Positions 2,784-35,771 of a DNA stretch of 35,914 bases are shown here, one piece after another. Positions within the stretch are counted from its first letter, which is position 1, and each line of letters begins with the position of its first letter. This DNA comes from Gammaproteobacteria bacterium (lineage in GTDB: Bacteria > Pseudomonadota > Gammaproteobacteria > Pseudomonadales > Pseudohongiellaceae): positions 1 to 35,914 of the forward strand of contig JAQWOJ010000053.1 of NCBI GenBank assembly GCA_029245905.1, given 5' to 3'. Position numbers and translations under genes: made by a program. The notes beneath the pieces were generated by a model, which did not search any database, was not told the DNA's origin, and saw only the letters and a list, made by a program, of their open reading frames with translations.

Positions 2784-5267
2784 CTAATGCGATTTCTTAC
2801 TTGACTTACTAGCCGCTTTCCTGGTGCGTTTCTTGATTTTCTTCTTCTCAGTGCTTGACCGCCCGGAAACCAGCCGCTTTTTAGAGTTCACATTTTTCTT
2901 TTTGCTTTTCGTGTTTTTCTTTTCAGATTGTTGCGTGTTTTTCTCCTTTGACTTAGACCCTCGCACAGTTGGATCCTTTTTTGTCCGTCTTTGATTTTTA
3001 ATTTTTGAATTACTCTTGTCAGGCAATCCTTTTATTTGTAGATCTATTTTTTTCTCTTCCAGATCTACTCGGACAACTCGCACGTCAATCTTATCGCCCA
3101 AACGATATATTTTTCGTGTTCGCTCTCCTTCAAGACAATGGTTAACAGGATCAAAATGGTAATAATCATTGCTTAGCTCTGATATGTGAACCAACCCTTC
3201 AATGTAAATATTATCTAATTCTACAAAAAGCCCAAAACTCATCACCGTAGTGATAGTTCCTAAAAACTCATCACCAACACGCTCTTGCATGTACTCACAC
3301 TTAAACCAATCAAGAACGCTGTAACCCGCAGAATCTGCCCTCCTTTCACTATCTGAGCACGCAACTCCGAGTGAGTTTATTTCTGCTTCGGTATATGGAT
3401 AAATTGCCGGTTTCGAAGCTGCCTGTGCGGGATTTTTTCGCTTCAAATGAGCGCTTGATTTATTATGAATTAGATACCTAATCGCTCGATGCACGAGCAA
3501 ATCTGGATACCGACGTATAGGCGAGGTAAAGTGGGTATATGCAGAAAAACCTAAACCAAAATGACCAATGTTGTCGGCTTGGTATACAGCCTGCATCATT
3601 GAGCGAATTAGCATAGTGTTGAGCAAACGACTATCAGGGCGCGAACTCGCCGCCAATAATACTTTCGCATAATCGCTAGGAGCAGGCTTCTCTCCCCCTC
3701 CGAGATACAGGCCTAGCCCGCTTAAGAATTCACGAACATTTTTAAGCTTTTCCGGGTTGGGACCTTCGTGAGTTCGAAAAAGCGCTGGCAGTTTAAAGCC
3801 TTCGATCAGCCTCGCAGCTGCTATGTTCGCGCACAACATACATTCTTCGATCATCCGGTGTGCATCGTTTCTCTCCACGGGAATTATTTCTTTTAACTTT
3901 TTATTCTCTCCAAAAATGAGACGCGTCTCGGTCGACTGAAAGTCCATAGCGCCGCTTTTCTCTCGCGCTATTCTTAGTGCGTAAAACAACGAATTAAGAT
4001 TATCGAATTGGAGAAGGAGCGCCCTATGCTTGTTCTGCAATTTACTCTGCAATTTCTCTTCAGCAGAAGTGTTTGGCTTACGCAAAATGTCTGCGACTTC
4101 TGTGTAGGTCATACGCGCATGCGAATGAATCAAAGCTTCGTAAAAGCAATAGTCTAGCAAATCTCCATCCTTTGAAATTTCCATCTCACACACCATCGCC
4201 AACCTATCGACTTTAGGCTTCAGCGAGCAAAGTCCATTGGAGAGCTCCTCCGGTAGCATCGGGATTACATGACCAGGAAAATATACAGAAGTGCCGCGAT
4301 CGGTGGCTTCTTGGTCCAGAGCGGAGCCGACCTTGACATAATGCGAGACATCAGCGATCGCGACATAGAGAGTCCAATTTCCCCTCTGGTGCTTGTGGGC
4401 AAATATCGCGTCATCGAAATCTTTCGCATCTTCTCCATCAATAGTGACAAATGGTAGATCGCGCAGATCAAACCTATCTCGCTTATCCTCCTCTCTTACA
4501 TATCTTTCAATCTTACCGATTTCTCCATTAACAGCTTCCGGCCAGTTGTGAGGAATATTGAAACTACGCACCGCGACATCGATCTCGAGCCCAGGCGTCG
4601 TGATATCGCCTAAAATTTCGGTAATCCTTCCTACAGCCTTCCTTCGCTTGCTCGGATATTCGATTAGCTCGGCAACTACAAATTGGCCATCACCTGCATT
4701 CCTGCATTCTCTTTCCGGAATCAGGATTTCATGGGCTATGCGTTTATTATCAGCAATAACCAACCCATAGCCCTGCTCGGCATAAAAACGCCCGACTATT
4801 TCCTTATAACGCCTCTCAAGAATTTCAACGACTACTCCCTCGCGACGGCCCCTAGAGTCCAGTCCGTTGAAGCGCGCTAACACTTGATCTCCATCGAATA
4901 ACTTTTCCATCTCTCGGACGCCGAGAAACAAATCGTCCCCGCCACCAGATGGTACGAAATAACCAACGCCATCTTTCGTCCCTTGAACAGTTCCTTTTTT
5001 CAATTCCATATGATCGGATAATCCATATGCTCCTTTCCGATTACTAATGACCTGTCCGTCTCTGCGCATCGCAATTAGCCGGCGCCTAAGAGCCTCCTCT
5101 CTCTCATCGGTTTTTATGTCCAAGTGATCGCATAACTCTAAGTAAGTAAGAGGCACACCATGTTCTTCAAGATGATTAAGGATAAATTCTCTAGACGGGA
5201 TAGGGTTTTTGTAATTCTCAGACTCACGAAAAGCGAAGGGGTCCGCGAATTTACGTGATTTAGGCAT
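2784..5267 (-). CDS. rnr: Ribonuclease R
   Basis: An 827-residue 3'-to-5' exoribonuclease that degrades structured RNA, including rRNA fragments and mRNA. An N-terminal winged-helix region spans about residues 25-85, followed by two cold-shock domains (about 90-260). The RNB catalytic domain starts near 265 and contains TIDGEDAKDFDDAIF at 275-289, giving metal-binding Asp277, Asp283, Asp285 and Asp286. The domain ends around the GLGFSAYTHFTSPIRRYPD region. An S1 domain (about 655-735) follows, and then a Lys/Ser/Arg-rich tail of about 90 residues. E. coli RNase R also has a basic tail; this one is long and low in complexity. No clear Shine-Dalgarno is visible. Downstream rlmB is 12 bp away. 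Confidence 0.97.
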   Translation of the reverse strand: MPKSRKFADPFAFRESENYKNPIPSREFILNHLEEHGVPLTYLELCDHLDIKTDEREEALRRRLIAMRRDGQVISNRKGAYGLSDHMELKKGTVQGTKDGVGYFVPSGGGDDLFLGVREMEKLFDGDQVLARFNGLDSRGRREGVVVEILERRYKEIVGRFYAEQGYGLVIADNKRIAHEILIPERECRNAGDGQFVVAELIEYPSKRRKAVGRITEILGDITTPGLEIDVAVRSFNIPHNWPEAVNGEIGKIERYVREEDKRDRFDLRDLPFVTIDGEDAKDFDDAIFAHKHQRGNWTLYVAIADVSHYVKVGSALDQEATDRGTSVYFPGHVIPMLPEELSNGLCSLKPKVDRLAMVCEMEISKDGDLLDYCFYEALIHSHARMTYTEVADILRKPNTSAEEKLQSKLQNKHRALLLQFDNLNSLFYALRIAREKSGAMDFQSTETRLIFGENKKLKEIIPVERNDAHRMIEECMLCANIAAARLIEGFKLPALFRTHEGPNPEKLKNVREFLSGLGLYLGGGEKPAPSDYAKVLLAASSRPDSRLLNTMLIRSMMQAVYQADNIGHFGLGFSAYTHFTSPIRRYPDLLVHRAIRYLIHNKSSAHLKRKNPAQAASKPAIYPYTEAEINSLGVACSDSERRADSAGYSVLDWFKCEYMQERVGDEFLGTITTVMSFGLFVELDNIYIEGLVHISELSNDYYHFDPVNHCLEGERTRKIYRLGDKIDVRVVRVDLEEKKIDLQIKGLPDKSNSKIKNQRRTKKDPTVRGSKSKEKNTQQSEKKNTKSKKKNVNSKKRLVSGRSSTEKKKIKKRTRKAASKSSKKSH

Positions 5268-5477
5268 TAATTAAGGAAAAATGAAAAGAGCATCTTCGTA
5301 GAGTATACACACCCACGCACTGATTGTCTGCGGTATTCCCAGAGTCTAGGCTGGAAGCACGCTGCGGGTTTGTACTTCGACATTCTTTGATATGGTATGT
5401 AAAAGAACTTTTTTATGGCACACTATTCAAATAAGAAGAGAGCAACCTCTCAATAGGTTGGCGATTTCAGAATAGAC

Positions 5478-5702
5478 ATGCACCGATTACTTCTTTTTTT
5501 TACATTTTGCATGGCCGGCTGCGCTGCCGACTATGAATATAAAGATTGTGGCGTTTTCTATGAGCGGCCAGAGGGCAGTCCTGTCACCAGTCAATCAATT
5601 CCTCTAACCATAGACAATTGGGGTGATGCAATGGCAGTAGCACGCGGTATTCCTCCAAATAGATTTGTCGAAAACAATGCATGCGTACTTACCGGCAAGT
5701 GA
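5478..5702 (+). CDS. Small putative lipoprotein, unknown function
   Basis: A 74-residue protein with a hydrophobic N-terminus, MHRLLLFFTFCMAGC, in which MAGC resembles a lipobox. Cleavage would leave Cys15 as the lipidated residue, with Ala at +2, compatible with outer-membrane sorting. The mature part is short and has two further cysteines (in YKDCGV and NNACVL) that could form a disulfide. I do not recognise the family. The ribosome site is weak, which lowers confidence in the start. It is the first gene of the accessory block, divergent from rnr, so 5268-5477 must hold promoters for both; no clear sigma-70 pair stood out there. Confidence 0.5.
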   Translation: MHRLLLFFTFCMAGCAADYEYKDCGVFYERPEGSPVTSQSIPLTIDNWGDAMAVARGIPPNRFVENNACVLTGK

Positions 5703-5767
5703 CGGACAACAAGAAAGACTCCGACTAAGCGACCCTGCTTAACATGGGAGCAAACGGTGCCCATTGG

Positions 5768-6133
5768 TTATCTGGCCAACTCCTTTCTCAGTAAAAATTC
5801 TAGTACGACAGCAGCAATTAGCAATGCCGGAATATCTCCCAAAAAATGTCCGCGCTCGGTGGCATCTGTTAGTGCCTGACCGAACATAATCATTCCATGC
5901 ACTAAACTGCTATATATGACAAACCTTATGAATAGGACGTGCTCGAGGGGCGCTTTTGAAGCCTGAAAAATCATCATTAAGCCCATCACCAAATAGATAC
6001 CAACAATCATCAACTGGTATTCAGGCTGTGACGGGGACCATGCCCAACCGCCAAACAAATCAAGCTGAAACAGCCCGTAAACAGAACAGAATACTAACCC
6101 AAAGCCAATTAAAGAAATTTTTAGCAGATTCAT
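5768..6133 (-). CDS. Small four-helix membrane protein (DUF6632-like)
   Basis: A 121-residue hydrophobic protein with about four membrane segments (near residues 5-25, 40-60, 68-88 and 98-115). The conserved-looking stretch HGMIMFGQALTDATERGH followed by LGDIPALLI resembles small proteins annotated DUF6632; that family name is from memory and not certain. An AAGGTG ribosome site lies about eight bases before the ATG. It is convergent with the small lipoprotein gene and divergent from the GNAT gene. No function is known for such proteins. Confidence 0.7.
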   Translation of the reverse strand: MNLLKISLIGFGLVFCSVYGLFQLDLFGGWAWSPSQPEYQLMIVGIYLVMGLMMIFQASKAPLEHVLFIRFVIYSSLVHGMIMFGQALTDATERGHFLGDIPALLIAAVVLEFLLRKELAR

Positions 6134-7988: not shown

Positions 7989-8054
7989 TTCATTTCTTTT
8001 TGCCAACCAACATTATGCATGACAAATAACGAGAATACTTTTCGGGGGGAATTT

Positions 8055-10859
8055 ATGAAGAGAATATTTACTTATTCTTCTAGTATGGCGCTAGCGCTTT
8101 CAATGTTGACTGTTAACTCATCAGAGGTCCTTGCACAAGGAGCAGAGATAGAAGAGATTGCGGTCACGGGCACCAGAATTAGAGGCGCGAATCCAGACAG
8201 CTTTTCACCGGTGGCAATAATCACCGCGGAGGATATCCAGATTTCTGGGTCAATATCCATCGGAGAGTTACTGCAACAGTTGCCATCACAGGGCTCTGGG
8301 CTTAATAGAACCTATAATAATGGTGGTAGCGGTGCGGTTCGAATGGATTTTCGAAACTTGGGTGCCGGAAGAACTCTTATCTTAGTAGACGGAAAGCGCT
8401 GGATCAACAGCGGCGAGGGCGCGAACAGCTCCGTTGACCTTAATACAATCCCTACGGCTTCCATAGCAAGAGTCGAAATCCTAAAAGATGGGGCTTCTGC
8501 GGTATATGGATCTGACGCGATAGGCGCGGTAATTAACATTATTACCAAGGATGATTTTGAAGGGGTCGAATTCCAGGCCCAAACAGGTGAATACTTTGAC
8601 GGTGGCGGCCTGGCCAACAACTACCAGGTCACTGCAGGGACTTCATTTGATCGTGGGTCTTTTATGCTGGGGGCGTCCCTAGTAGAAATTGAAGATCTCG
8701 GGAATGGCGATAGAAAGGAAACTGCGGCAAGACCTGCGGGGGGAGGCTCGTCTGGCACGCCTCAAGGCCGCCTCGCTTACGGCGATGTGGTTCCAGGCTG
8801 TAGCAACTTTACACCAAGCGATGGAACAAGCGGGGCATCGGCATCAGATTTTCGGTGCTGGACCAGCCCAGATGACAGATTTAATTACAACCCTTATAAC
8901 TATGTCGAGACCCCCAATGAACGAGTAAATTTGTTCGCTAAGGGCCGGTTCAACCTGACTGATAACACCGATCTGACGTTAAACGGCACATACCAGAACC
9001 GCGAATCAGATCAACTCTTAGCTCCTATGCCGCTTTTCTATGGCTTTGGTGACTTTGGAGGAAGCGAGGGTATTTCAAGAAATAACCCCTACAACCCGTT
9101 CGGAATTGAGTTTTGCGACCTAACCGGGCTGTCGGTTGAAGGCAAAGCTTGTAATGACGCAAACTACCCAGATGGCTATGCAGAAGGATGGACGGGACGC
9201 CGACTCTTGGAGGCGGGAAATCGAAACTTCATTCAAGACGTTCAAACCTATCGGTTTGAAATGGGCATAGAGACTGAATTCAATGGATGGGATGTCTCAG
9301 CCTATGCGATCACAGGCCAAAATAAAAATGTTACGACTACTAATGGCTTGCTAAATACCGGCAACATTAAGAAAGCGTTAGAAGGAGACTGTGCAAGCCC
9401 TTGTGTACCCTTGAACCTTTTTGGCGGACAAGGAGCAGACAGCGCTTATATGGGTGATGGTTTGTGGAGCGGCTCAGGGTCGATTACACCTGAAATGGTC
9501 GATTACATTACCTTCGAAGCTCATGACACGGGACGAAATGAGATGAAAAGCTATGGCTTCGACATCGCTGGAGACCTTATGGAGATTCCCGCTGGTACTA
9601 TTGGTCTAGCTTTTGGCTATGAATTTCGAGAAGAGAAAGGAGCATACTCTCCCGACGCTTTTATAGCGGCTGGCTTGTCATCTGGAAATGCATCTAGCCC
9701 AGTTTCAGGTGAATATGATGTTAACGAGTGGTATGCAGAAGTAGCAGTACCTATTCTCGAAGGCCTTGAACTCAGCGCGGCCACTCGCTTTTCTGACTAC
9801 TCAAGTTTCGGTAATACGACCAATAGCAAAGTGGGTCTAACCTATGCGCTTAACGAGATGGTTACCTTCAGGGGAACCTACTCAGAGGGATTCCGAGCGC
9901 CTTCCATTGGGGCTTTGTATAGCGGCAATAGCGATAGCTACCCAGACTTAGCGGATCCGTGCGATGTCAATGCTAGTAATTTTACCGGTGGCGCGGGCGG
10001 AACTCAGGCAGGTCGATGCGCGGCTGACGGAGTTCCAAATGGGTTTACACAGCCTAACACGCAAATACGCACTACTGTCGGCGGCAACCCAAACACTCAA
10101 CCAGAGGAATCTGAAAGCTTTAATTTCGGTGTTATAGTCAATCCTTTAGACAATTTGACCGTCTACCTTGATTATTATGACGTTGAAATCACTGACACCA
10201 TTTCTTCAATTGGATCTCAGTTAATTCTGAACGGGTGCTATGAGGGTACAAATCCAGGCTACTGTAACTTGGTTACCAGACTACCAACGGGTTACATGAA
10301 GGATTTGCGCAATACAACAAACAATATTGGGAAGCTCGAGACCTCGGGTTATGAAGTCACCGCGATGTACGACTGGGATACCAGCTTAGGTAGCTGGAGA
10401 GCAGTTGCAGATTTTGCGATGTTAGATGACTACGATGTTACTAAAGCTAACGGCTCAGTAGAGCATTACGCCGGGTTAATTGTTGGAAACGCAAGGAACC
10501 AGTTTAAGGATGTTAAAGGCAACCTCCAACTTTTCTGGTCTAAAGGTGATTTCTCTGCTGGAGCCACAGCCCAGTATCATGGAGAAGCGGACGGTATATT
10601 TTCAACACCGCCGAAAACGCTTGCTGACGGCACAAAAGATGCTGGTGATTCAAAAACCAAACTTGATGCCACTTGGTACTTAGATTTGCAGGCTTCGTAC
10701 AACATGGATAGTTTCAATTCCGTAATATCCGTTGGAATTGACAACATCCTTGACGAAGACCCTCCTTATTTTACTGATGCGTACGCCAATGACTTTGACC
10801 CTTCATACAGGACCTGGGGTTCTCAGTTTTGGTATGCACGGATAACCACGAGGTTCTAG
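8055..10859 (+). CDS. TonB-dependent outer-membrane receptor
   Basis: A 934-residue TonB-gated transporter of the outer membrane. The start is placed at 8055 because a GGGGGGA ribosome site (8044-8050) lies just upstream and the signal peptide begins there (MKRIFTYSSSMALALSM, cleavage near VLA/QG); an in-frame ATG at 8019 would add 12 residues. A TonB-box-like EEIAVTGTR follows at about 33-41. Next come the plug domain (about 50-170, with RTLILVDGKRW and DGASAVYGSDAIGAVINII) and a beta-barrel ending in a terminal Phe (ITTRF). Cysteine pairs occur in extracellular-loop regions. The plug type resembles large receptors in marine gammaproteobacteria, whose ligands range over siderophores, sugars and peptides. 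The ligand is unknown; the Fur-like site upstream slightly favours iron-linked regulation. Confidence 0.95.
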   Translation: MKRIFTYSSSMALALSMLTVNSSEVLAQGAEIEEIAVTGTRIRGANPDSFSPVAIITAEDIQISGSISIGELLQQLPSQGSGLNRTYNNGGSGAVRMDFRNLGAGRTLILVDGKRWINSGEGANSSVDLNTIPTASIARVEILKDGASAVYGSDAIGAVINIITKDDFEGVEFQAQTGEYFDGGGLANNYQVTAGTSFDRGSFMLGASLVEIEDLGNGDRKETAARPAGGGSSGTPQGRLAYGDVVPGCSNFTPSDGTSGASASDFRCWTSPDDRFNYNPYNYVETPNERVNLFAKGRFNLTDNTDLTLNGTYQNRESDQLLAPMPLFYGFGDFGGSEGISRNNPYNPFGIEFCDLTGLSVEGKACNDANYPDGYAEGWTGRRLLEAGNRNFIQDVQTYRFEMGIETEFNGWDVSAYAITGQNKNVTTTNGLLNTGNIKKALEGDCASPCVPLNLFGGQGADSAYMGDGLWSGSGSITPEMVDYITFEAHDTGRNEMKSYGFDIAGDLMEIPAGTIGLAFGYEFREEKGAYSPDAFIAAGLSSGNASSPVSGEYDVNEWYAEVAVPILEGLELSAATRFSDYSSFGNTTNSKVGLTYALNEMVTFRGTYSEGFRAPSIGALYSGNSDSYPDLADPCDVNASNFTGGAGGTQAGRCAADGVPNGFTQPNTQIRTTVGGNPNTQPEESESFNFGVIVNPLDNLTVYLDYYDVEITDTISSIGSQLILNGCYEGTNPGYCNLVTRLPTGYMKDLRNTTNNIGKLETSGYEVTAMYDWDTSLGSWRAVADFAMLDDYDVTKANGSVEHYAGLIVGNARNQFKDVKGNLQLFWSKGDFSAGATAQYHGEADGIFSTPPKTLADGTKDAGDSKTKLDATWYLDLQASYNMDSFNSVISVGIDNILDEDPPYFTDAYANDFDPSYRTWGSQFWYARITTRF

Positions 10860-10922
10860 GCGACGGTCAAATGGTCGGCGTATTTGGTCGCTATTAAATG
10901 AAATACGCTAGTTAGCTTTGAC

Positions 10923-10966
10923 GCATAAAAAAACCCGAGCGGATAAACGTTCGGGTTTTTTTATGC
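10923..10966 (+). terminator. Strong intrinsic terminator after TonB receptor
   Basis: GCATAAAAAAACCCGA (10923-10938) pairs with TTCGGGTTTTTTTATGC (10950-10966) around a short loop. The GC core is followed by a run of seven T on the plus strand. On the minus strand the arms likewise give a T-run, so it may also stop the leftward transcript of the 58-residue gene. It lies 64 bp after the receptor stop. Confidence 0.9.
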
Positions 10967-11020
10967 AACCAATCAACAAATTGACCTTAAAGATTAAACT
11001 TATACAGCATTCTCACTTAA

Positions 11021-11197
11021 CTAACCTTTCACTCTTTGTTTGCTTACTTTAGAAAGTTCTCTAGCAAATTCATCCAACCTCATCCTTATCTCATCTTCTT
11101 TTGCTTTTCTTAGGAGCGTTTGGTCTGTATCGAATTCTGTTAAGCGGTTTTTTTCGCTTAAAGTTTCTTCAACTAATGCCTGAGCGAGTTTAGTCAT
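11021..11197 (-). CDS. Small charged helical protein, unknown function
   Basis: A 58-residue protein, very rich in Lys, Glu, Arg and Leu and almost certainly all helical (for example LVEETLSEKNRLTEF and RLDEFARELSKVSKQR). The ATG complementing 11195-11197 is preferred because a GGAG lies nine bases upstream; a TTG five codons earlier in frame is the alternative. I do not recognise the family. It sits between the bidirectional-looking terminator and about 530 bp of repeat-bearing non-coding DNA next to the transposase. It could be a small regulatory or mobile-element cargo protein; the sequence does not show which. The clean ribosome site and codon use support a real gene. Confidence 0.5.
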   Translation of the reverse strand: MTKLAQALVEETLSEKNRLTEFDTDQTLLRKAKEDEIRMRLDEFARELSKVSKQRVKG

Positions 11198-11266
11198 TAT
11201 GTTCAACTCCAAGTTCTTTTAAATAACTTGCTAAAGCTTTTGCACTCAAATTCTAACCGTTCCCCT

Positions 11267-11308
11267 GTTTCTGTCCGAAACTGAACAAAATGGACAAGGT
11301 ACAGAAAC
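11267..11308. repeat. Inverted repeat in transposase flank
   Basis: GTTTCTGT (11267-11274) and ACAGAAAC (11301-11308) are perfect reverse complements separated by 26 bp. A second inner pair, GTCC (11273-11276) and GGAC (11292-11295), allows an alternative fold. The position, about 420 bp from the transposase end, fits an element-associated palindrome, but the GTRG tetranucleotide typical of REP sequences is not evident. Confidence 0.5.
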
Positions 11309-11494
11309 GCAACATATAGTGTTGATAAATTAAAGTCAAACAATATCTAGACACATTCTATGATTATTGAAGCCTATCAAACAACATGATCAATATGGTG
11401 TACCAGCCCCCTAAATAATTCAAACCACCTAATCTTAGAAATTCTAGAAAATTCTGACACTTAGAAAAAAAAGATATTAGATTTTTGTATTAAT

Positions 11495-11529
11495 AAAGGA
11501 CACCCAATGGAAAATTAAAGTACACCCAA
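11495..11529. repeat. Tandem 13-mer pair AAAG(G/T)ACACCCAA
   Basis: AAAGGACACCCAA (11495-11507) and AAAGTACACCCAA (11517-11529) differ at one base. They are spaced 22 bp start to start, close to two helical turns. They lie on the 3' side of the Y1 transposase gene. The regular spacing suggests protein binding sites on one DNA face or short mobile-element end repeats. Confidence 0.6.
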
Positions 11530-11723
11530 GAATTAAATAAATTGAAATTTCTATCTTGCTCAGTGTTTTTAAGCCGTGTTTTTATAAAACCAGAAAATAT
11601 TTAGCGAAACCTAAGCAATTTTTGATAAGCGACATCGAATAATTATCGAACAGAAGGTAAGCCCTGATAGATTAATGTCTAATAATAGAAGATAGAGATT
11701 GGCAGTAAGAAAGATTAAGGATT

Positions 11724-12818
11724 TTAAGATCCATAAAGTAGGTGTGCAGCACACCGCCCACGTATCCATTTTTCTGGATACTTTAAGTCTACTCCTGCCT
11801 TTATCCTACTTTTATGAAAATTCACTAACGCAATTTCATCGCCGACAGCAACTCCATAATGGCGATGAAACCCCTTGATACTCTTCATCCATGTCGCGAA
11901 GGAAGTATCTAAGGCCTCTAATAATGAATTTTTAACACCTAATTGACTGTCGATCTTTGTTTGTCCGTGCTTACCTAAAGTCAGATTTCGAGCCGTAGCT
12001 TCGAGCAAATTGAAATATTTTGCCTGAAAAAAAATGTGTGGCCCTTCGGCAAGTCCAAATATTTTGGATAGGGGTTTGAGTTGGCGCCGCTTTTTGGAAC
12101 CAGGCTTTGATAGCAAATGTTTTACTGTTCTTCGTCGCAATAATTTATTTTGGCGGTGGTTTCGGTTTTTTACTCTCCTGGCTTGGATAAGTAAACGTTC
12201 TTGAATCGATGTAAAATCGCTAACCTCTAGCGAACTTGAATTGCCAGATCTAATTGGATTTAAATCTACGTAAGCCATACACGTAACTAATGCTCTTTCA
12301 TCAAGCAACGCCTGGCTTTTAAATCGACCTTCCCAAAATCGCCCCTTGCAATTATCCTCTATGTTAGCATGCCTAGCGATATACTCGTTTAAACAGCGCA
12401 TAAACCAACTAATATCAGTCAATCTCTCTCGCCATAAAGCCACGTTATCTTTTAATTTTTTCTTCGCTGATACGTATTTAATATTTTGTTCGAGGGTTTC
12501 GATTATTGCAGTATTGCGAGGAAAAATTTTGGACCATCGAGCAATCACCTCCCCATCCGTCCACCTGTCGGCCTCTTCTCGATTGACATACAAAACCAGA
12601 TGGTAATGATCACTCATAACAGCATAAGCGCACACATCAACTGCGAACTGCGAAGTAAGGTCCTTTACTCGATTAACCAACCAAGCCTTACGATGATCGA
12701 AGTTGTGGCCGCTTACAGGATCTTCTCCGCACAAGTAAGCTCGCCTTACGCAACGCGAGATGCAATGATAATAGGGAGTATCATCGAGAGACACTTGCTG
12801 ATAACGAGCTCTAGTCAC
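11724..12818 (-). CDS. Y1-type (HUH) REP-associated tyrosine transposase
   Basis: A 364-residue protein of the IS200/TnpA-REP group, single-strand DNA nucleases that use a tyrosine. The N-terminal VSLDDTPYYHCISRCVRRAY and the HUH metal motif in AVMSDHYHLVL (His71 and His73) are diagnostic. A helix carrying the likely catalytic Tyr (NEYIARHAN) precedes WEGRFKSQALLDERAL and AYVDLNPIR. A basic linker and an extra C-terminal region of about 130 residues follow. The GTG complementing 12816-12818 is chosen because it matches the family's start and has AAGGA ten bases upstream; a TTG start at 12890 is possible. No accessory tnpB or clear IS ends flank it, so it looks like a domesticated or solitary RAYT. 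Confidence 0.9.
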   Translation of the reverse strand: MTRARYQQVSLDDTPYYHCISRCVRRAYLCGEDPVSGHNFDHRKAWLVNRVKDLTSQFAVDVCAYAVMSDHYHLVLYVNREEADRWTDGEVIARWSKIFPRNTAIIETLEQNIKYVSAKKKLKDNVALWRERLTDISWFMRCLNEYIARHANIEDNCKGRFWEGRFKSQALLDERALVTCMAYVDLNPIRSGNSSSLEVSDFTSIQERLLIQARRVKNRNHRQNKLLRRRTVKHLLSKPGSKKRRQLKPLSKIFGLAEGPHIFFQAKYFNLLEATARNLTLGKHGQTKIDSQLGVKNSLLEALDTSFATWMKSIKGFHRHYGVAVGDEIALVNFHKSRIKAGVDLKYPEKWIRGRCAAHLLYGS

Positions 12819-12946
12819 AAAAAACAGATCCTTACGTAAACCTTTACCAACACGGATCGGAGATTGTAGTGTCTTTGTAGTAGTATGCAAGTCATTGTTA
12901 TGTCAGTATTTTTGTGACAGTGACACATAAAATAATGAGAATTGAA

Positions 12947-13843
12947 ATGCGCATAGGGTTAGATTTAGGCGGTACGAAGATCGAAGGAATACTACTTTCA
13001 AATGGAGGTGCCATTGAGCAAAAAGTTCGAGTTGAAACCCCGTCTGATAATTATAGGAAAACTGTGGATTCAGTTTGCCGTTTGATAAAAAACTTGCAGC
13101 CGCCTACCCCAGTACCGGTTGGCATTGGAACACCAGGCTCTCTAGTTCTTCCGGAAGGATTAATGAAGAATTCCAACTCGGTGTGCCTTAATCACAAGCC
13201 GCTCCAGCGAGATGTTGAGACAAAGCTTGGTTACGAAATTCGAATCGAAAATGATGCAAATTGCTTTATATTATCTGAAGCTATTTATGGGGCGGCCGCG
13301 GCCGCCCAAAGTGCTTTTGGCGTTATTTTAGGGACCGGTTGTGGTGGCGGCTTCGTCTTTAATAAGCGGCTTGTTACAGGGCCCAATGGGATTGCGGGCG
13401 AATGGGGTCACAACTGTATTCCAGTGTCGGTAAGAGATTTAATTAAACAAGATCGTATCTGTCACTGTGGGCGCACTAATTGTATCGAAACAGTAATTTC
13501 TGGGCGCGGGCTGACACAAACTCATTTCGAGAATTTTAATCAAACGTTGGAGGCAAGTGAAATAGCGCAGCTGGCGGAGAATAACAACTCAGACGCCATG
13601 AAGAGCATAGATACATATGCCAAACAATTGGCTTACAGCCTCGTTACAATAGTCAATATGGTTGATCCCCATTCGATAGTCCTGGGTGGGGGTGTCTCAA
13701 ATATTAAAGCCCTTTACGAGTTAGTCCCTAAATATCTTACCCATGTTATCTTTAATGACGCGGTGCACACAAAAATTTTACCTCCTGCGTTTGGAGATGC
13801 CAGCGGCGCGATCGGTGCCGCTTGTTTATGGCCAGAAAATTAA
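12947..13843 (+). CDS. ROK-family sugar kinase, Mak-like fructokinase
   Basis: A 298-residue kinase that resembles E. coli Mak (YajF), a manno(fructo)kinase of 302 residues. Visible are the phosphate-binding LDLGGTK (5-11), IGTPGSL, ENDANCF with the catalytic-base Asp, LGTGCGGGFVFN, GEWGHNC, and the zinc-binding set CHCGRTNCIE. The adenosine motif IVLGGGVSNI lies near the end. The start at 12947 gives the canonical MRIGLDLGG; ATG 12935 and GTG 12914 are open alternatives but lie in the TGACA repeat region. Ribosome-site support is weak (GAGA). It converges on purA with only 3 bp between stop codons. Fructose is the most likely substrate by similarity; other hexoses are possible. Confidence 0.88.
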   Translation: MRIGLDLGGTKIEGILLSNGGAIEQKVRVETPSDNYRKTVDSVCRLIKNLQPPTPVPVGIGTPGSLVLPEGLMKNSNSVCLNHKPLQRDVETKLGYEIRIENDANCFILSEAIYGAAAAAQSAFGVILGTGCGGGFVFNKRLVTGPNGIAGEWGHNCIPVSVRDLIKQDRICHCGRTNCIETVISGRGLTQTHFENFNQTLEASEIAQLAENNNSDAMKSIDTYAKQLAYSLVTIVNMVDPHSIVLGGGVSNIKALYELVPKYLTHVIFNDAVHTKILPPAFGDASGAIGAACLWPEN

Positions 13844-27854: not shown

Positions 27855-27892
27855 TAAAAAACCCGCTCCTTATCGAGAAGGCATGAGGCAGG
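27855..27892 (-). terminator. Candidate intrinsic terminator after VOC gene
   Basis: On the minus strand an outer stem of CCTGCCTC with GAGCGGG (one bulge and one G-U pair) encloses an inner CCTT/AAGG stem and is followed by TTTTTT. It lies about 40 bp after the VOC stop codon and would end the five-gene run from 31526. Confidence 0.5.
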
Positions 27893-27933: not shown

Positions 27934-28713
27934 CTAATCAGGCTCCACAACTTCAATACGAACTCCATCAGGCCCTTCAATAAATGAAATTCGAATACCT
28001 CTAAATGGTGTCGGTTCCATTGTGAAATCTACGTTGTTAGTTAACAAATTTCGTCCAAATTCATCAAGGTCATCTGCCGCCCATCCCAAATGATCCATAG
28101 ATCGACCCAGGGTAGGAGTAATTTCTCCATCCGACTGTCCTACCATTAACCACACATCGCTATAATTGATGGCCGGGAGCACTCCCTTCCAATTTGAGAC
28201 CTCTCCCCCAAAAATATTCTCGTACCAAGTCAGAGTGACTTCTGGATCAGGAGACGAAAGATGCACATGGTGAAGGCCACGGGTTTCAGGATCATTTATT
28301 AGTTCAATTTTGGTTCCCCAAGGATCTTCCACAAAGGCTATTTGCATTCCAGCGAATTCCACAAAATCTCCTATTTGCGTGCCGCCGTCGGCAATAACTG
28401 CAGCTGTGATTTGATCAACATTCGCCATTGAAAAGCCGATGTGATCAACTCCGGTGCCAACCGAGCCACCCGTGGGTTCACGTTCAAAAAAGATGACAGA
28501 CAATCCATTATAGAAAACACGATTAATTGGGTATTCCACGCGATCAGCGTCTCCGCGGTTAAACGCACCTGCTTCACCACCAAAATGCTTGACGTACCAA
28601 TCAACGGCGTCTTGGGCATTGCTTGCAGTCAAGTGCACATGGTCATACGGCACCGCCGCGTTTAGAGTCCACCCAAAAAAAGTAATACAAAAAATGAAAG
28701 CGAGTTTGTTCAT
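27934..28713 (-). CDS. Exported two-domain VOC (glyoxalase-fold) protein
   Basis: A 259-residue protein with a signal peptide (MNKLAFIFCITFFGWTLNA, cleaved near residue 19). Two vicinal-oxygen-chelate domains follow (about residues 23-128 and 132-257). Each begins with a His-containing strand (DHVHLTAS; HHVHLSSP) and ends with a Glu-containing strand (TKIELIND; VRIEVVEP), the expected metal ligands. The start is placed at the ATG complementing 28711-28713, with AAGGGG upstream, rather than five codons earlier. VOC enzymes include glyoxalase I, dioxygenases and fosfomycin-resistance proteins, mostly cytoplasmic; periplasmic export is less usual. Substrate unknown. It lies 67 bp after the DUF4159 gene. 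Confidence 0.88.
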   Translation of the reverse strand: MNKLAFIFCITFFGWTLNAAVPYDHVHLTASNAQDAVDWYVKHFGGEAGAFNRGDADRVEYPINRVFYNGLSVIFFEREPTGGSVGTGVDHIGFSMANVDQITAAVIADGGTQIGDFVEFAGMQIAFVEDPWGTKIELINDPETRGLHHVHLSSPDPEVTLTWYENIFGGEVSNWKGVLPAINYSDVWLMVGQSDGEITPTLGRSMDHLGWAADDLDEFGRNLLTNNVDFTMEPTPFRGIRISFIEGPDGVRIEVVEPD

Positions 28714-28780
28714 GATATACCCCTTCAAAACTTTGAAAAACCATAGTCCTTAATACAGGCTAGATTATCTAAGCAAATTT

Positions 28781-29575
28781 TTAATGTGTCATCGAATACA
28801 TTAAGTAGTTAATACCAAGCCTGTAGGCGGAATTAGCGTAACGCGTTGGATATGCTGGATGGTAAGTGTGCTCCCACCCATCTCCCATATCTGAATTCCA
28901 ATTAATAAGCACCATCACTCTCCCCTCATCATCCAATATAGCGTGATTAGAAGCATGATTTATTCCTTGCTCACCATATTCATCCGATCGATAAAGCGCA
29001 GGAATTAATTGAGGTCCATCTATGTCGTAGTAAACATGGAAAATTTCATGTTCTGGCTCTAACTCGACCACCTCTCTGTCAGGGAAAACTTGTGAAAACG
29101 CGGCATAGAAGTTATTCCATTGTTGCTGACCCCAAAAATCATCGATAAGAAGGAAGCCGCCTCGCAGCAGATATTCTCTTAAGTTTTCAATTTCTCTTGG
29201 ACTGAGAGTCAGTCCTCCTCCTTGTCCAACCTCAAGCATGTACAAAAATGGGTAGTCGAAAATTTCTTCATCATCAACCCTTAGAACAATTGGGTCGCTC
29301 ATTACTCGAATATTCGTGAGACGAGATACCCCCCTCAAAAAATTCATATCCGCGTCAGGAAAATCTATCGACCAGGCTCCGAAACCAAAGCCCTGACCAT
29401 AGTAAGTATCAAACTGTATCCTTACGAAATTAAATTCCCCGGCTTCATCATACTCTAAGTTAATCGACTGATCATCAAAGCCAGAGGCTTGAGGATAGAC
29501 TTGCGCGTTTAAGGGTAAAACCACACCAACAAGAAGTGACCAAGCTAGCAAAAAAATTGCGGTTTTTTTTCTCAT
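28781..29575 (-). CDS. Exported DUF4159-family protein
   Basis: A 264-residue protein with a signal peptide (MRKKTAIFLLAWSLLVGVV, cut near LNA/Q at residue 24). The body has the features of DUF4159: NFVRIQFDTYYG near the start, YPFLYMLEVGQGG, NLREYLLRGGFLLIDDFWG at about residues 130-148, then LEPEHEIFHVYYDIDG and a closing RLGINYLMYSMTH. The fold resembles a glutamine-amidotransferase-like domain often attached to larger membrane proteins; here it stands alone and is exported. Function is unknown. It is 101 bp after the ChaN-like gene on the same strand. Confidence 0.85.
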   Translation of the reverse strand: MRKKTAIFLLAWSLLVGVVLPLNAQVYPQASGFDDQSINLEYDEAGEFNFVRIQFDTYYGQGFGFGAWSIDFPDADMNFLRGVSRLTNIRVMSDPIVLRVDDEEIFDYPFLYMLEVGQGGGLTLSPREIENLREYLLRGGFLLIDDFWGQQQWNNFYAAFSQVFPDREVVELEPEHEIFHVYYDIDGPQLIPALYRSDEYGEQGINHASNHAILDDEGRVMVLINWNSDMGDGWEHTYHPAYPTRYANSAYRLGINYLMYSMTH

Positions 29576-29676
29576 AATTTAATTTTCAAAACTAATCTAT
29601 TGCGATCAATTACTTATTTTAGATTAAAAACGACACAAGAATAACATGAACGTCGAATCTAAATAACCAGAGAAAA

Positions 29677-30615
29677 TCACTGCCGAAGCGACGCGCAATA
29701 ATCCTCCTCTGATACCACAGGAGTAAACCATATATAGTCGTACGCCGCAGTCTCGCTATACTGCTGCAAATAATTTTCTGGCTCAGTCTCTGATGGATCA
29801 ACTTCCATTAGCGAAAGAGAAACTATGTCTTCCAAAGCCAAACCAAAATTACTTTCCAACAAGTAATTGGGCACGCCTAGGTCTCTTCGGGCATGATAAT
29901 TACCAGCAATAAGGACTTTTGTTGCCTCACTATCTATAGGGCCCAAACTTTGCGACATTGAGTGGTCTCTTCCTTGCTGAACTCTGACCATCGCGGGAAA
30001 TTGGGACTCTGGCAATAAACCACAATGACTCTCATCGATATCTGAATTTAACTGTTGCTTTGTTGACTGTTCAAGAATATCAATCTCCGGAGGCAAAGCA
30101 GTTAATCCGTATAGTTCCATCATTGTAGAGCTTGAAATATTAGCGCCAACCATAGGCACAGCAGCATCATAGGCGCTTTTTATTAGTGGCCCATAATATG
30201 ACCATTCCCATCCTTCAGCGTCCCAATCAAGATATTCTTTGATTTCGCCAAGGGTCTCTAAACTCTCAGATTGAATATCATCTAAGAGTGTCTGGTAATC
30301 CGGACCCATCATCTCAAAAGCCAGCAGCGATAGATTATTATCGACTATCAAATGTTCAATGATTGATAGCTGCAAAATATGATGATCAGGGTTATCGTGC
30401 TTCTCTCCTAAAATAAGATAATTGGCACTTAATATAGCATTTTCAATTTCTTCAGTAGACAAAAATGTTTTTGACTTACTACTCCATATCTTACCTATAA
30501 GCGGATGGTCGCCGTATAACTTTGAGTTCCACTGAACTGGTTCTACTATTTTTGCTTGTACAAATGAGCTTATGCATAAAAGAAAAACAACTCCGCGAAT
30601 TTTAATTTGCGCCAC
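29677..30615 (-). CDS. ChaN-family (haem-binding, DUF399/Tiki-like) exported protein
   Basis: A 312-residue protein with a signal peptide (cut near VQA at residue 21) and no usable lipobox, so probably periplasmic and soluble. Family motifs are YLILGEKHDNPDHH (66-79), SLLAFEMM, EWSYYGPLIKSAYDAAVPMV, MVRVQQGRDHSM, and IAGNYHARRDLGVPNYL. ChaN of Campylobacter binds haem, and the wider Tiki/EreA-like superfamily includes metalloproteases. The GTG start overlaps the cytochrome gene by 14 bp and has GGGAG seven bases upstream inside that gene, implying translational coupling. A haem or redox function alongside the cytochrome is inference. Confidence 0.9.
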   Translation of the reverse strand: MAQIKIRGVVFLLCISSFVQAKIVEPVQWNSKLYGDHPLIGKIWSSKSKTFLSTEEIENAILSANYLILGEKHDNPDHHILQLSIIEHLIVDNNLSLLAFEMMGPDYQTLLDDIQSESLETLGEIKEYLDWDAEGWEWSYYGPLIKSAYDAAVPMVGANISSSTMMELYGLTALPPEIDILEQSTKQQLNSDIDESHCGLLPESQFPAMVRVQQGRDHSMSQSLGPIDSEATKVLIAGNYHARRDLGVPNYLLESNFGLALEDIVSLSLMEVDPSETEPENYLQQYSETAAYDYIWFTPVVSEEDYCASLRQ

Positions 30616-31027
30616 CCATTAACTCCCATCGGTAATATACTTCATCGGTCCAATAATTTTGAAAATATGCTATCACCGCAAGCTTGTCGTCATCCTGCAA
30701 AATATCAGAAAAGCCGGGCATCATGCCACCAAAAGATGCTCCTCCTTCATTTATAACCTGCAGTAGCATCGAAATCGGATGGTGCCAGGCGTGCGCGGAT
30801 CCATTAAGCGGCGGCGGAGGTAACGAGCCGTCATCAAGCCTTTTTTTCCAGTCGCCCGCAGAACCTTGCGCCTCTTTGCCGTGGCAAATAGCACAATTTG
30901 CGGAAAACAGTGTCGCCCCCAAGGCAACCTGGTCCTGACTATACCACCTGGCCGGCGCGCTTGATTTACGATCCTCATCACAAGAGACAATGAAAAGCGA
31001 GGCCAGTAAGATGAAATGCCTAAACAT
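30602..31027 (-). CDS. Lipid-anchored monohaem cytochrome c
   Basis: A 141-residue class I cytochrome c. The N-terminus ends in the lipobox IVSC, giving lipidated Cys16 with Asp at +2 and Glu at +3; Asp at +2 favours retention in the inner membrane by the Lol rule. The haem-binding CAICH is at residues 45-49 and a likely axial Met is in GGMMPGF (102-103). Residues 105-126 form the final helix (DDDKLAVIAYFQNYW). It overlaps the phosphatase gene by 8 bp and the ChaN-like gene by 14 bp. It could pass electrons to or from a periplasmic partner; the partner is not evident from sequence. Confidence 0.93.
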   Translation of the reverse strand: MFRHFILLASLFIVSCDEDRKSSAPARWYSQDQVALGATLFSANCAICHGKEAQGSAGDWKKRLDDGSLPPPPLNGSAHAWHHPISMLLQVINEGGASFGGMMPGFSDILQDDDKLAVIAYFQNYWTDEVYYRWELMGGAN

Positions 31028-31526
31028 TCGATTCGCTTAAATTTTTCGGGTAGTCAAATTTCACAGAGATCCCCTGACCCAATTCTATTTTTGACCAACA
31101 ACTTATCGCTAATGTCATTTCTATGAGACTGCAAGTTGGCATACTGTCAATGCTGCTATTTGTCATGCGATTTGCAAATTCTGTGATAGTCGGATTGTGC
31201 CCCACCAGCATGGCCGTTTCAAACCGATCGTCTATTGAGCCAACTACCTTCAAAAAAACACCAACTCCTGCTAAATACAATTCAGACTGGCGAATCACGT
31301 TATCTGGAGGAAAACCAGTCTTTTCTGCCATTAGGGTAGCAGTGTGATTTGCTCGCTTAGCCGAGCTCGAAATTATAGTTTGCAACGACGAATGACGCTC
31401 GTTGAAACGTTTTGCCATTAGAGTTATATCCTTCAGTCCGCGATCGCTCAAGGGGCGCTCGAAATCCTTTATAACCGGATTTGAGGAAGAAGATTTAGCA
31501 TGACGCAGTAAATAAAGTGTTTTCAT
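31020..31526 (-). CDS. SixA-type histidine phosphatase
   Basis: A 168-residue histidine-phosphatase-superfamily protein. The catalytic LYLLRHAKS (Arg8, His9) begins at the fourth residue, RPLSDRG follows, and the second catalytic His is in LVGHNPTI. The start MKTLYLLRHAKS is canonical, so the ATG complementing 31524-31526 is chosen over the 15-codon extension. E. coli SixA dephosphorylates phosphohistidine on ArcB or the PTS-Ntr protein NPr, but many homologues have unknown substrates. It is the first gene of the overlapping run phosphatase-cytochrome-ChaN and is divergent from the DUF481 gene; no clear ribosome site was seen. Confidence 0.93.
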   Translation of the reverse strand: MKTLYLLRHAKSSSSNPVIKDFERPLSDRGLKDITLMAKRFNERHSSLQTIISSSAKRANHTATLMAEKTGFPPDNVIRQSELYLAGVGVFLKVVGSIDDRFETAMLVGHNPTITEFANRMTNSSIDSMPTCSLIEMTLAISCWSKIELGQGISVKFDYPKNLSESNV

Positions 31527-35297: not shown

Positions 35298-35771
35298 ATG
35301 GCGAAGCTAAAGGTAAATGGTACAGAGCACGTTCTCGATATAGAACCGGAAATGCCCTTGCTATGGGCGATACGCGACGAAATTGGGTTAACTGGAACAA
35401 AATTTGGCTGCGGAATTGCTTCCTGCGGAGCCTGCACGGTCCATGTAAACGGCAAGGCGGTTCGCAGTTGCGTAACTCCTGTTTCAGCAGTTGATGGACA
35501 AAAAATCACCACTATTGAAGGGTTAGCGGTCGCACTTGGTGCGGAAAATACTTCTAGACCTGATCTTGCAGCTGTTCAACGGGCATGGATTGATCATCAA
35601 ATTCCTCAGTGTGGTTACTGCCAATCTGGAATGATTATGGCAGTGTCGTCTTTTCTTGCCGAGAACCCTAACCCCAGTGACGCCCAAATTGATGCTGGCA
35701 TTACCAATATTTGCCGTTGCGGCTCATATCCTCGCGTGAGAAAAGCAATACATGCACTGGCGAGTGCATAA
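35298..35771 (+). CDS. (2Fe-2S) subunit of IorA-type molybdenum oxidoreductase
   Basis: A 157-residue iron-sulfur subunit. The N-terminal plant-type cluster uses Cys38, Cys43, Cys46 and Cys58 (FGCGIASCGACTV and RSC). The second cluster uses Cys105, Cys108, Cys139 and Cys141 (QCGYCQSGM and ICRCG). This is the layout of the isoquinoline 1-oxidoreductase alpha subunit and related aldehyde oxidoreductases. GGGGGAGA lies upstream of the ATG. The matching molybdopterin subunit starts 10 bp downstream. The pair would oxidise an N-heterocycle or aldehyde in the periplasm and pass electrons to a cytochrome; the substrate cannot be read from these parts. Confidence 0.93.
   Translation: MAKLKVNGTEHVLDIEPEMPLLWAIRDEIGLTGTKFGCGIASCGACTVHVNGKAVRSCVTPVSAVDGQKITTIEGLAVALGAENTSRPDLAAVQRAWIDHQIPQCGYCQSGMIMAVSSFLAENPNPSDAQIDAGITNICRCGSYPRVRKAIHALASA

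Follow-up and report, generated by a model that had tools for sequence, protein, structure and literature searches.

Gene organization of the locus

We analyzed a stretch of DNA of 35,914 nucleotides, referred to here as the window, which is contig 53 (JAQWOJ010000053.1) of a 2.2-Mb, 86% complete genome (GCA_029245905.1) of the Pseudohongiellaceae, a family of mostly uncultured bacteria. The window contains a minus-strand run of five open reading frames (ORFs) that encode a SixA-like phosphatase, a class-I cytochrome c lipoprotein, a ChaN-family protein, a DUF4159 protein, and an exported VOC protein with two modules. These genes and the associated features are as follows.

31020..31526, minus strand: SixA-like phosphohistidine phosphatase family protein (PF00300, E value 6.9e-8; no signal peptide seen)
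30602..31027, minus strand: class-I cytochrome c lipoprotein (PF13442/PF00034; CAICH heme site, lipobox Cys, candidate axial Met)
30602..30615, minus strand: 14 bp shared by the cytochrome and ChaN reading frames, holding the ChaN GTG start
29677..30615, minus strand: ChaN-family exported protein (PF04187, E value 1.4e-37; GTG start)
28781..29575, minus strand: exported DUF4159 protein, putative GATase-like fold, cysteine-free (PF13709, E value 2.4e-44)
27934..28713, minus strand: exported VOC (glyoxalase/dioxygenase superfamily) protein, two modules (PF00903, two stretches)
27856..27882, minus strand: weak candidate terminator, hairpin plus U-run (minimum-free-energy fold, hairpin into UUUUUU)

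The ORF coordinates agree with a preliminary description of this DNA as five same-strand genes, the first three of which overlap by 8 bp (SixA-like/cytochrome, 31020-31027) and 14 bp (cytochrome/ChaN, 30602-30615); gaps of 101 bp and 67 bp separate ChaN from DUF4159 and DUF4159 from VOC, respectively. An alternative start of the VOC gene is the TTG codon at 28728. All Pfam matches (PF00300, PF13442/PF00034, PF04187, PF13709, and PF00903) exceed the curated cutoffs. The phosphatase is termed SixA-like because its best NCBIfam match, sixA, reached 51 bits, which is under the cutoff of 74.5. Inspection of the sequences points to signal-like N termini in the ChaN, DUF4159, and VOC proteins and to an IVSC lipobox in the cytochrome, in line with the earlier statement that four of the five products are exported; the SixA-like protein, with neither, is the exception. 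Less certain is the terminator that had been proposed to close the run: an imperfect hairpin (27882-27861) does run into six U residues (27861-27856), but this stretch folds no better than shuffled sequences (z = -0.85, 37 of 200 shuffles equally good), and a terminator pattern scan lists none at the hairpin site.

Conservation of the locus within and outside the family

Related loci were retrieved from public genome records; OM182 bacteria and Pseudohongiella are among the records that the ChaN alignment matched. We analyzed the best 80 of 259 ChaN loci, and since these are the best scoring, the nearest kin are overrepresented in the resulting counts. A SixA gene lies upstream of ChaN on the same strand at 75 of the 80 loci (absent from 4 and unseeable in 1), the cytochrome is present at 61 (absent from 17 and unseeable in 2), and VOC is present at 33 (absent from 40 and unseeable in 7, corresponding to 33 of 73 visible loci). 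DUF4159 is found within 1.5 kb of ChaN at 75 loci, on the same strand at 62 and convergent at 13; at the others, it is farther away (2 loci) or was not found (2 loci), or the contig ends (1 locus). Chance adjacency, which the preliminary description had named as the outcome that would speak against a system, does not account for these numbers. However, the 80 loci represent few independent observations, because the flanking genes are syntenic and the traits change only one to four times on the ChaN tree (SixA once, cytochrome and VOC three times each, and DUF4159 four times). This tree was built by a quick method from the 80 loci together with the window itself, three further sequences of the family, and four from outside it, and its outgroup is not one clade. 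The genes that are syntenic around the run in many loci encode an iron alcohol dehydrogenase (FeADH), a small lipoprotein, and the proteins TPR, DUF481, MarR, YjeF, TsaE, and AmiC (amidase).

Of 194 order-level genomes, 32 have ChaN, and six of these 32 belong to the family; ChaN profile matches were obtained in 108 of 369 class-level genomes (the window's own included), 41 of them strong (E value below 1e-29). The out-of-family scan covered 68 loci (sets of 24 and 29, each locus flanked by up to 1.5 kb, plus 15 wider cuts of some of the order-level loci) around the best-scoring out-of-family ChaN genes, which amount to 52 distinct genes with one genome included twice. The profiles of SixA, the cytochrome, DUF4159, VOC, DUF481, and MarR gave no match at 1e-4 in these 68 loci, and the same profiles recovered the window and the family loci. 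By eye, the out-of-family ChaN genes adjoin RNase D-like, TraB-like, SfsA/DksA-like, or ABC transporter genes. Recurrence of the arrangement in distant lineages, proposed earlier as support for a system, was thus not seen beside the out-of-family ChaN genes tested, and the gene cluster is, as far as tested, a family trait. DUF4159 was matched in 10 of the 369 class-level genomes, one of which is the window's own; no ChaN-like ORF was noticed by eye in the out-of-family DUF4159 flanks (up to 1.5 kb), where the ChaN profile was not run.

Genera designated g2, g3, and g8 have only lower-scoring DUF4159 and, apart from one remote partial match (G027), no ChaN. SixA, sought in 16 of the 22 genomes sampled from these genera, gave matches of 24 to 35% identity or none. 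Joint absence of ChaN and SixA was considered as evidence of linkage and rejected; it fits a single gain or loss in one clade. In two genomes of the window's own genus (G093 and G095), neither ChaN nor SixA was found, for which the incomplete assemblies may account. One record titled Klebsiella pneumoniae metagenome-assembled genome (CAMCRC010000005.1) carries a family ChaN locus with the arrangement of the sister clade described below; its title is probably wrong.

Overlap of the cytochrome and ChaN genes

The lipobox Cys, the CxxCH motif, and the Met of GGxMPxF, a candidate ligand, are each kept in all 61 cytochrome relatives. These features are those of a class-I cytochrome c lipoprotein, with a lipobox Cys, CxxCH, and a C-terminal Met, and heme attachment is predicted from them. 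The preliminary description had highlighted a CAICH lipoprotein with Asp at position +2. This is true of the window, but Asp follows the lipobox Cys in only 2 of the 56 relatives with a lipobox recognized by pattern (none was recognized in 5 more), and Ser does so in 27.

At 45 of 61 loci, the ChaN start codon occupies an identical position within the cytochrome gene; this count excludes the 19 loci without a recognized cytochrome, two of them cut by the contig end. The GTG start derives from a Gly codon in the conserved tail of the cytochrome, and among Gly codons only GGT yields GTG. GGT is used at this position in 44 of the 56 loci with a Gly-Gly tail, versus 214 of 701 other Gly codons of the aligned gene (p = 1.7e-13, uncorrected for relatedness). 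The ChaN start lies elsewhere in three of these 44 loci (L114, L119, and L121), and at four other loci (L059, L066, L072, and L083), the residue at the overlap is other than Gly, yet an ATG or GTG is retained. At three of the loci lacking the overlap start (L071, L076, and L078), an ATG follows the cytochrome stop codon at a distance of one base.

Four related and rearranged genomes (L114, L118, L119, and L121) retain the cytochrome-ChaN pair, and two of the four have DUF4159; SixA, DUF481, TPR, MarR, YjeF, TsaE, and AmiC were not found in the DNA examined from these genomes. Retention of the pair after rearrangement, together with the kept overlap start, favors a selected cytochrome-ChaN pair, though the rearrangement is the event of one clade.

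Properties of the ChaN protein

ChaN of the window scores 130.2 bits with PF04187 (gathering cutoff, 27.7) and shares 40 to 71% identity with its counterparts in 43 relatives. Its structural model has a predicted local distance difference test (pLDDT) score of 91.7, and the best fold match is Campylobacter jejuni ChaN (Protein Data Bank [PDB] code 2g5g; Z score, 27.4; root mean square deviation [RMSD], 2.6 over 248 residues), which is also the only solved structure whose sequence matched the ChaN profile. The next folds are the erythromycin esterase EreC and its relatives, with Z scores of about 13 to 14 (best, 13.7). E71, H73, H78, E101, H197, and H241 are invariant in all 44 family sequences and in all 53 ChaN sequences from outside, a set in which one genome is counted twice. 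Tyr141 is present in 44/44 family and 51/53 outside sequences, and Tyr169, which aligns with a Tyr of 2g5g, is present in 44/44 and 21/53, respectively. The conserved Glu, His, and Tyr residues would fit either heme binding or hydrolysis; the six Glu/His residues do not separate the two, because 2g5g retains all of them. C198 and C307 are conserved together (44/44 in the family and 52/53 each outside), as expected of a disulfide.

In the literature excerpts that we consulted, ChaN biology is mentioned in passing. PhuW, considered as a ChaN relative, was dropped; the relevant part of PMC5511505 presents it as a putative coproporphyrinogen oxidase of a Fur-controlled heme locus.

Properties of the neighboring genes

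DUF4159 is more conserved than ChaN, with 63 to 87% identity between the window copy and those of 41 relatives. Its model, with a pLDDT score of 70.5, matches 4i66 (Z score, 20.3; RMSD, 2.3 over 186 residues); with a model of only this quality, weaker matches were obtained to GATase, ThuA-like, and IFT52 folds (Z scores of 7 to 9). The 264-amino-acid protein of the window contains no Cys, and there is none in the invariant or near-invariant columns of 42 sequences. The catalytic cysteine nucleophile of class-I glutamine amidotransferases is therefore lacking, and DUF4159 is no ordinary glutaminase. In the sister clade, the gene occurs in the convergent orientation, facing ChaN, and in three genomes of one genus (L154 to L156), it stays beside SixA without ChaN. 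The host genome carries two further DUF4159 copies. One of these paralogs is separated by a single gene from a DUF6351 tannase-like gene (L152; 4223-6532 and 8012-8824). DUF6351 (PF19878) stands beside, or one gene off, two different DUF4159 paralogs in the host genome as well as in the relatives L117, L155, and L156, as assigned by Pfam in L152 and L117 and by eye in L155 and L156.

In the VOC protein, H30, H32, H96, and E142 of module 1 and H154, H156, H213, and E259 of module 2 (L042 numbering) are invariant in 33/33 relatives; each module thus has the candidate H/H/E metal ligands of the VOC superfamily. The preliminary description had placed DUF4159 and VOC in the same candidate system. 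This was not borne out, since VOC occurs at fewer than half of the visible loci and DUF4159 flips strand and persists without ChaN. All five genes as a single undescribed system are not supported; the SixA-like, DUF4159, and VOC proteins are conserved neighbors whose part in a cytochrome-ChaN mechanism is unproven.

Several further genes were noted in the window and in relatives. (i) Near the contig end, the window encodes a molybdenum-hydroxylase-type 2Fe-2S subunit (35298-35771; Fer2_2), whose best NCBIfam match is glyceraldehyde dehydrogenase gamma, below the cutoff. (ii) A xanthine-dehydrogenase-like gene set lies between MarR and DUF481 in some relatives (L154 to L156 and L117). (iii) Two genes of the relative L043 would find no room at the corresponding places of the window: one, pyruvate-dehydrogenase-E1-like (10842-13511), separates VOC from MarR, and the other, with a glutamate-synthase domain (4392-6011), separates TPR from DUF481. 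(iv) An ORF of 388 amino acids in the window (11724-12890) resembles, by eye, REP-associated (Y1-type) transposases.

Interpretation and alternative explanations

Starting from the gene order, overlap, conservation, and folds described above, we tentatively propose a vertically inherited, family-restricted envelope locus whose functional core would be the cytochrome and ChaN. The class-I cytochrome c, anchored in the membrane, and the exported ChaN may be translationally coupled, so that they would be produced together; they could then meet in the envelope, where the cytochrome might donate electrons to, or accept them from, heme or iron held by ChaN. The preliminary description had suggested an envelope heme or redox function for these two proteins. 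Of its suggestions, the link between them is the best supported, through the overlap start and the pair kept after rearrangement, but electron transfer is something that we infer.

Several points weigh against such an exchange. The overlap start is missing in 16 of the 61 cytochrome loci, and gene overlaps are frequent in operons even where the products never touch. The sister clade carries ChaN without the cytochrome at 12 of 12 loci where this is visible, so ChaN can do without it. The 61 cytochrome loci are not independent, given three changes of this trait on the tree, and none of the partners was matched beside the out-of-family ChaN genes tested. ChaN also retains residues that would suit a hydrolase.

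Ranking close to the proposed electron exchange, and only a little less plausible, is the explanation that the five genes act separately and merely keep inherited company in a synteny that has remained unbroken across the family. It would account for the conserved order of the flanking genes at many loci, the few trait changes, the lack of recurrence beside the out-of-family ChaN genes tested, and a DUF4159 gene that reverses strand and outlasts ChaN in three genomes, but it leaves unexplained why a start codon is held in the 14-bp overlap and why cytochrome and ChaN are kept where other neighbors are gone. More ambitious, and in our view improbable, is an undescribed envelope redox unit in which the cytochrome, by way of the overlapping start, would be the electron partner of ChaN and DUF4159 an accessory binding or scaffold part. 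It is similarly doubtful that ChaN is an envelope hydrolase with an erythromycin-esterase/TIKI-like fold rather than a heme carrier, with the cytochrome as a bystander: the six invariant Glu/His residues, which we take to resemble esterase residues, are laid out like a catalytic or metal site, and EreC and its relatives are the nearest solved folds after 2g5g, but 2g5g, with heme-bound in its title, is a far closer fold (Z scores of 27.4 versus 13.7), and Tyr169, aligned with the 2g5g Tyr, is present throughout the family.

The least probable explanation is a heme uptake locus, as proposed for Campylobacter ChaN. It draws on the PF04187 name and the 2g5g fold, on two out-of-family ChaN loci (L164 and L167) that by eye adjoin FecCD-like permease or hemin-ABC-like genes, and on a TonB-dependent receptor in the window (8019-10859), about 19 kb off. 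This receptor, however, scores 81.8 bits against a heme receptor cutoff of 316.85, and a B12-type model scores higher, also below its cutoff. The 74 SixA upstream regions scanned showed no excess of Fur boxes (best matches averaged 10.4/19 versus 10.5 in shuffled sequences), the sole strong FecCD permease match sits on a different contig, the host genome has its own ferrochelatase, and no HemS match was found in it, although gene absences are weak evidence because the genome is 86% complete. By eye, no heme transport genes adjoin the run in the window or in the relatives listed. Taken together, heme uptake looks unlikely.

The function of most ChaN proteins is uncertain, though the family occurs in many genomes of the class. 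A lineage that ties ChaN to an electron transfer protein provides a handle on whether it acts as a heme carrier, a heme or iron redox partner, or a hydrolase. The locus also adds one further genomic setting for the uncharacterized DUF4159 fold.

Comparison with known systems

For a ChaN-like lipoprotein of Bacteroides fragilis, a role in heme uptake is presumed because, according to the relevant part of PMC10102347, it drops along with heme import proteins. It has the family name in common with ChaN of the window, but this presumption leans on heme import partners, none of which was identified at the window locus, and the neighboring genes differ. The SixA-like protein shares with Escherichia coli SixA (PMC6282199 and PMC7948535) membership in the histidine phosphatase superfamily, but it falls below the NCBIfam sixA cutoff.

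A search of the available literature for the term DUF4159 returned no paper. The other DUF4159 paralog of the host genome sits, by eye, in a MoxR-DUF58-BatA-like operon (L153), whereas DUF4159 of the window stands with ChaN and SixA and has no adjoining MoxR-like gene. With Haliangium 4i66, it has a common fold and a profile match (E value, 1.6e-8); 4i66 was deposited as an uncharacterized protein, and no function is transferable.

Cofacial heme binding through a Tyr ligand would be expected of a ChaN protein, and C. jejuni ChaN is iron regulated. The structure of the latter with cofacial heme, 2g5g, shares its fold with ChaN of the window (profile E value, 9.4e-30), and the positions of E71, H73, H78, E101, H197, H241, Tyr141, and Tyr169 align between the two proteins, whereas C198 of the conserved C198-C307 pair corresponds to a gap in the 2g5g alignment. 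In addition, C. jejuni ChaN is a putative lipoprotein in the PDB, whereas ChaN of the window has a signal-like N terminus with no obvious lipobox and is encoded behind a cytochrome.

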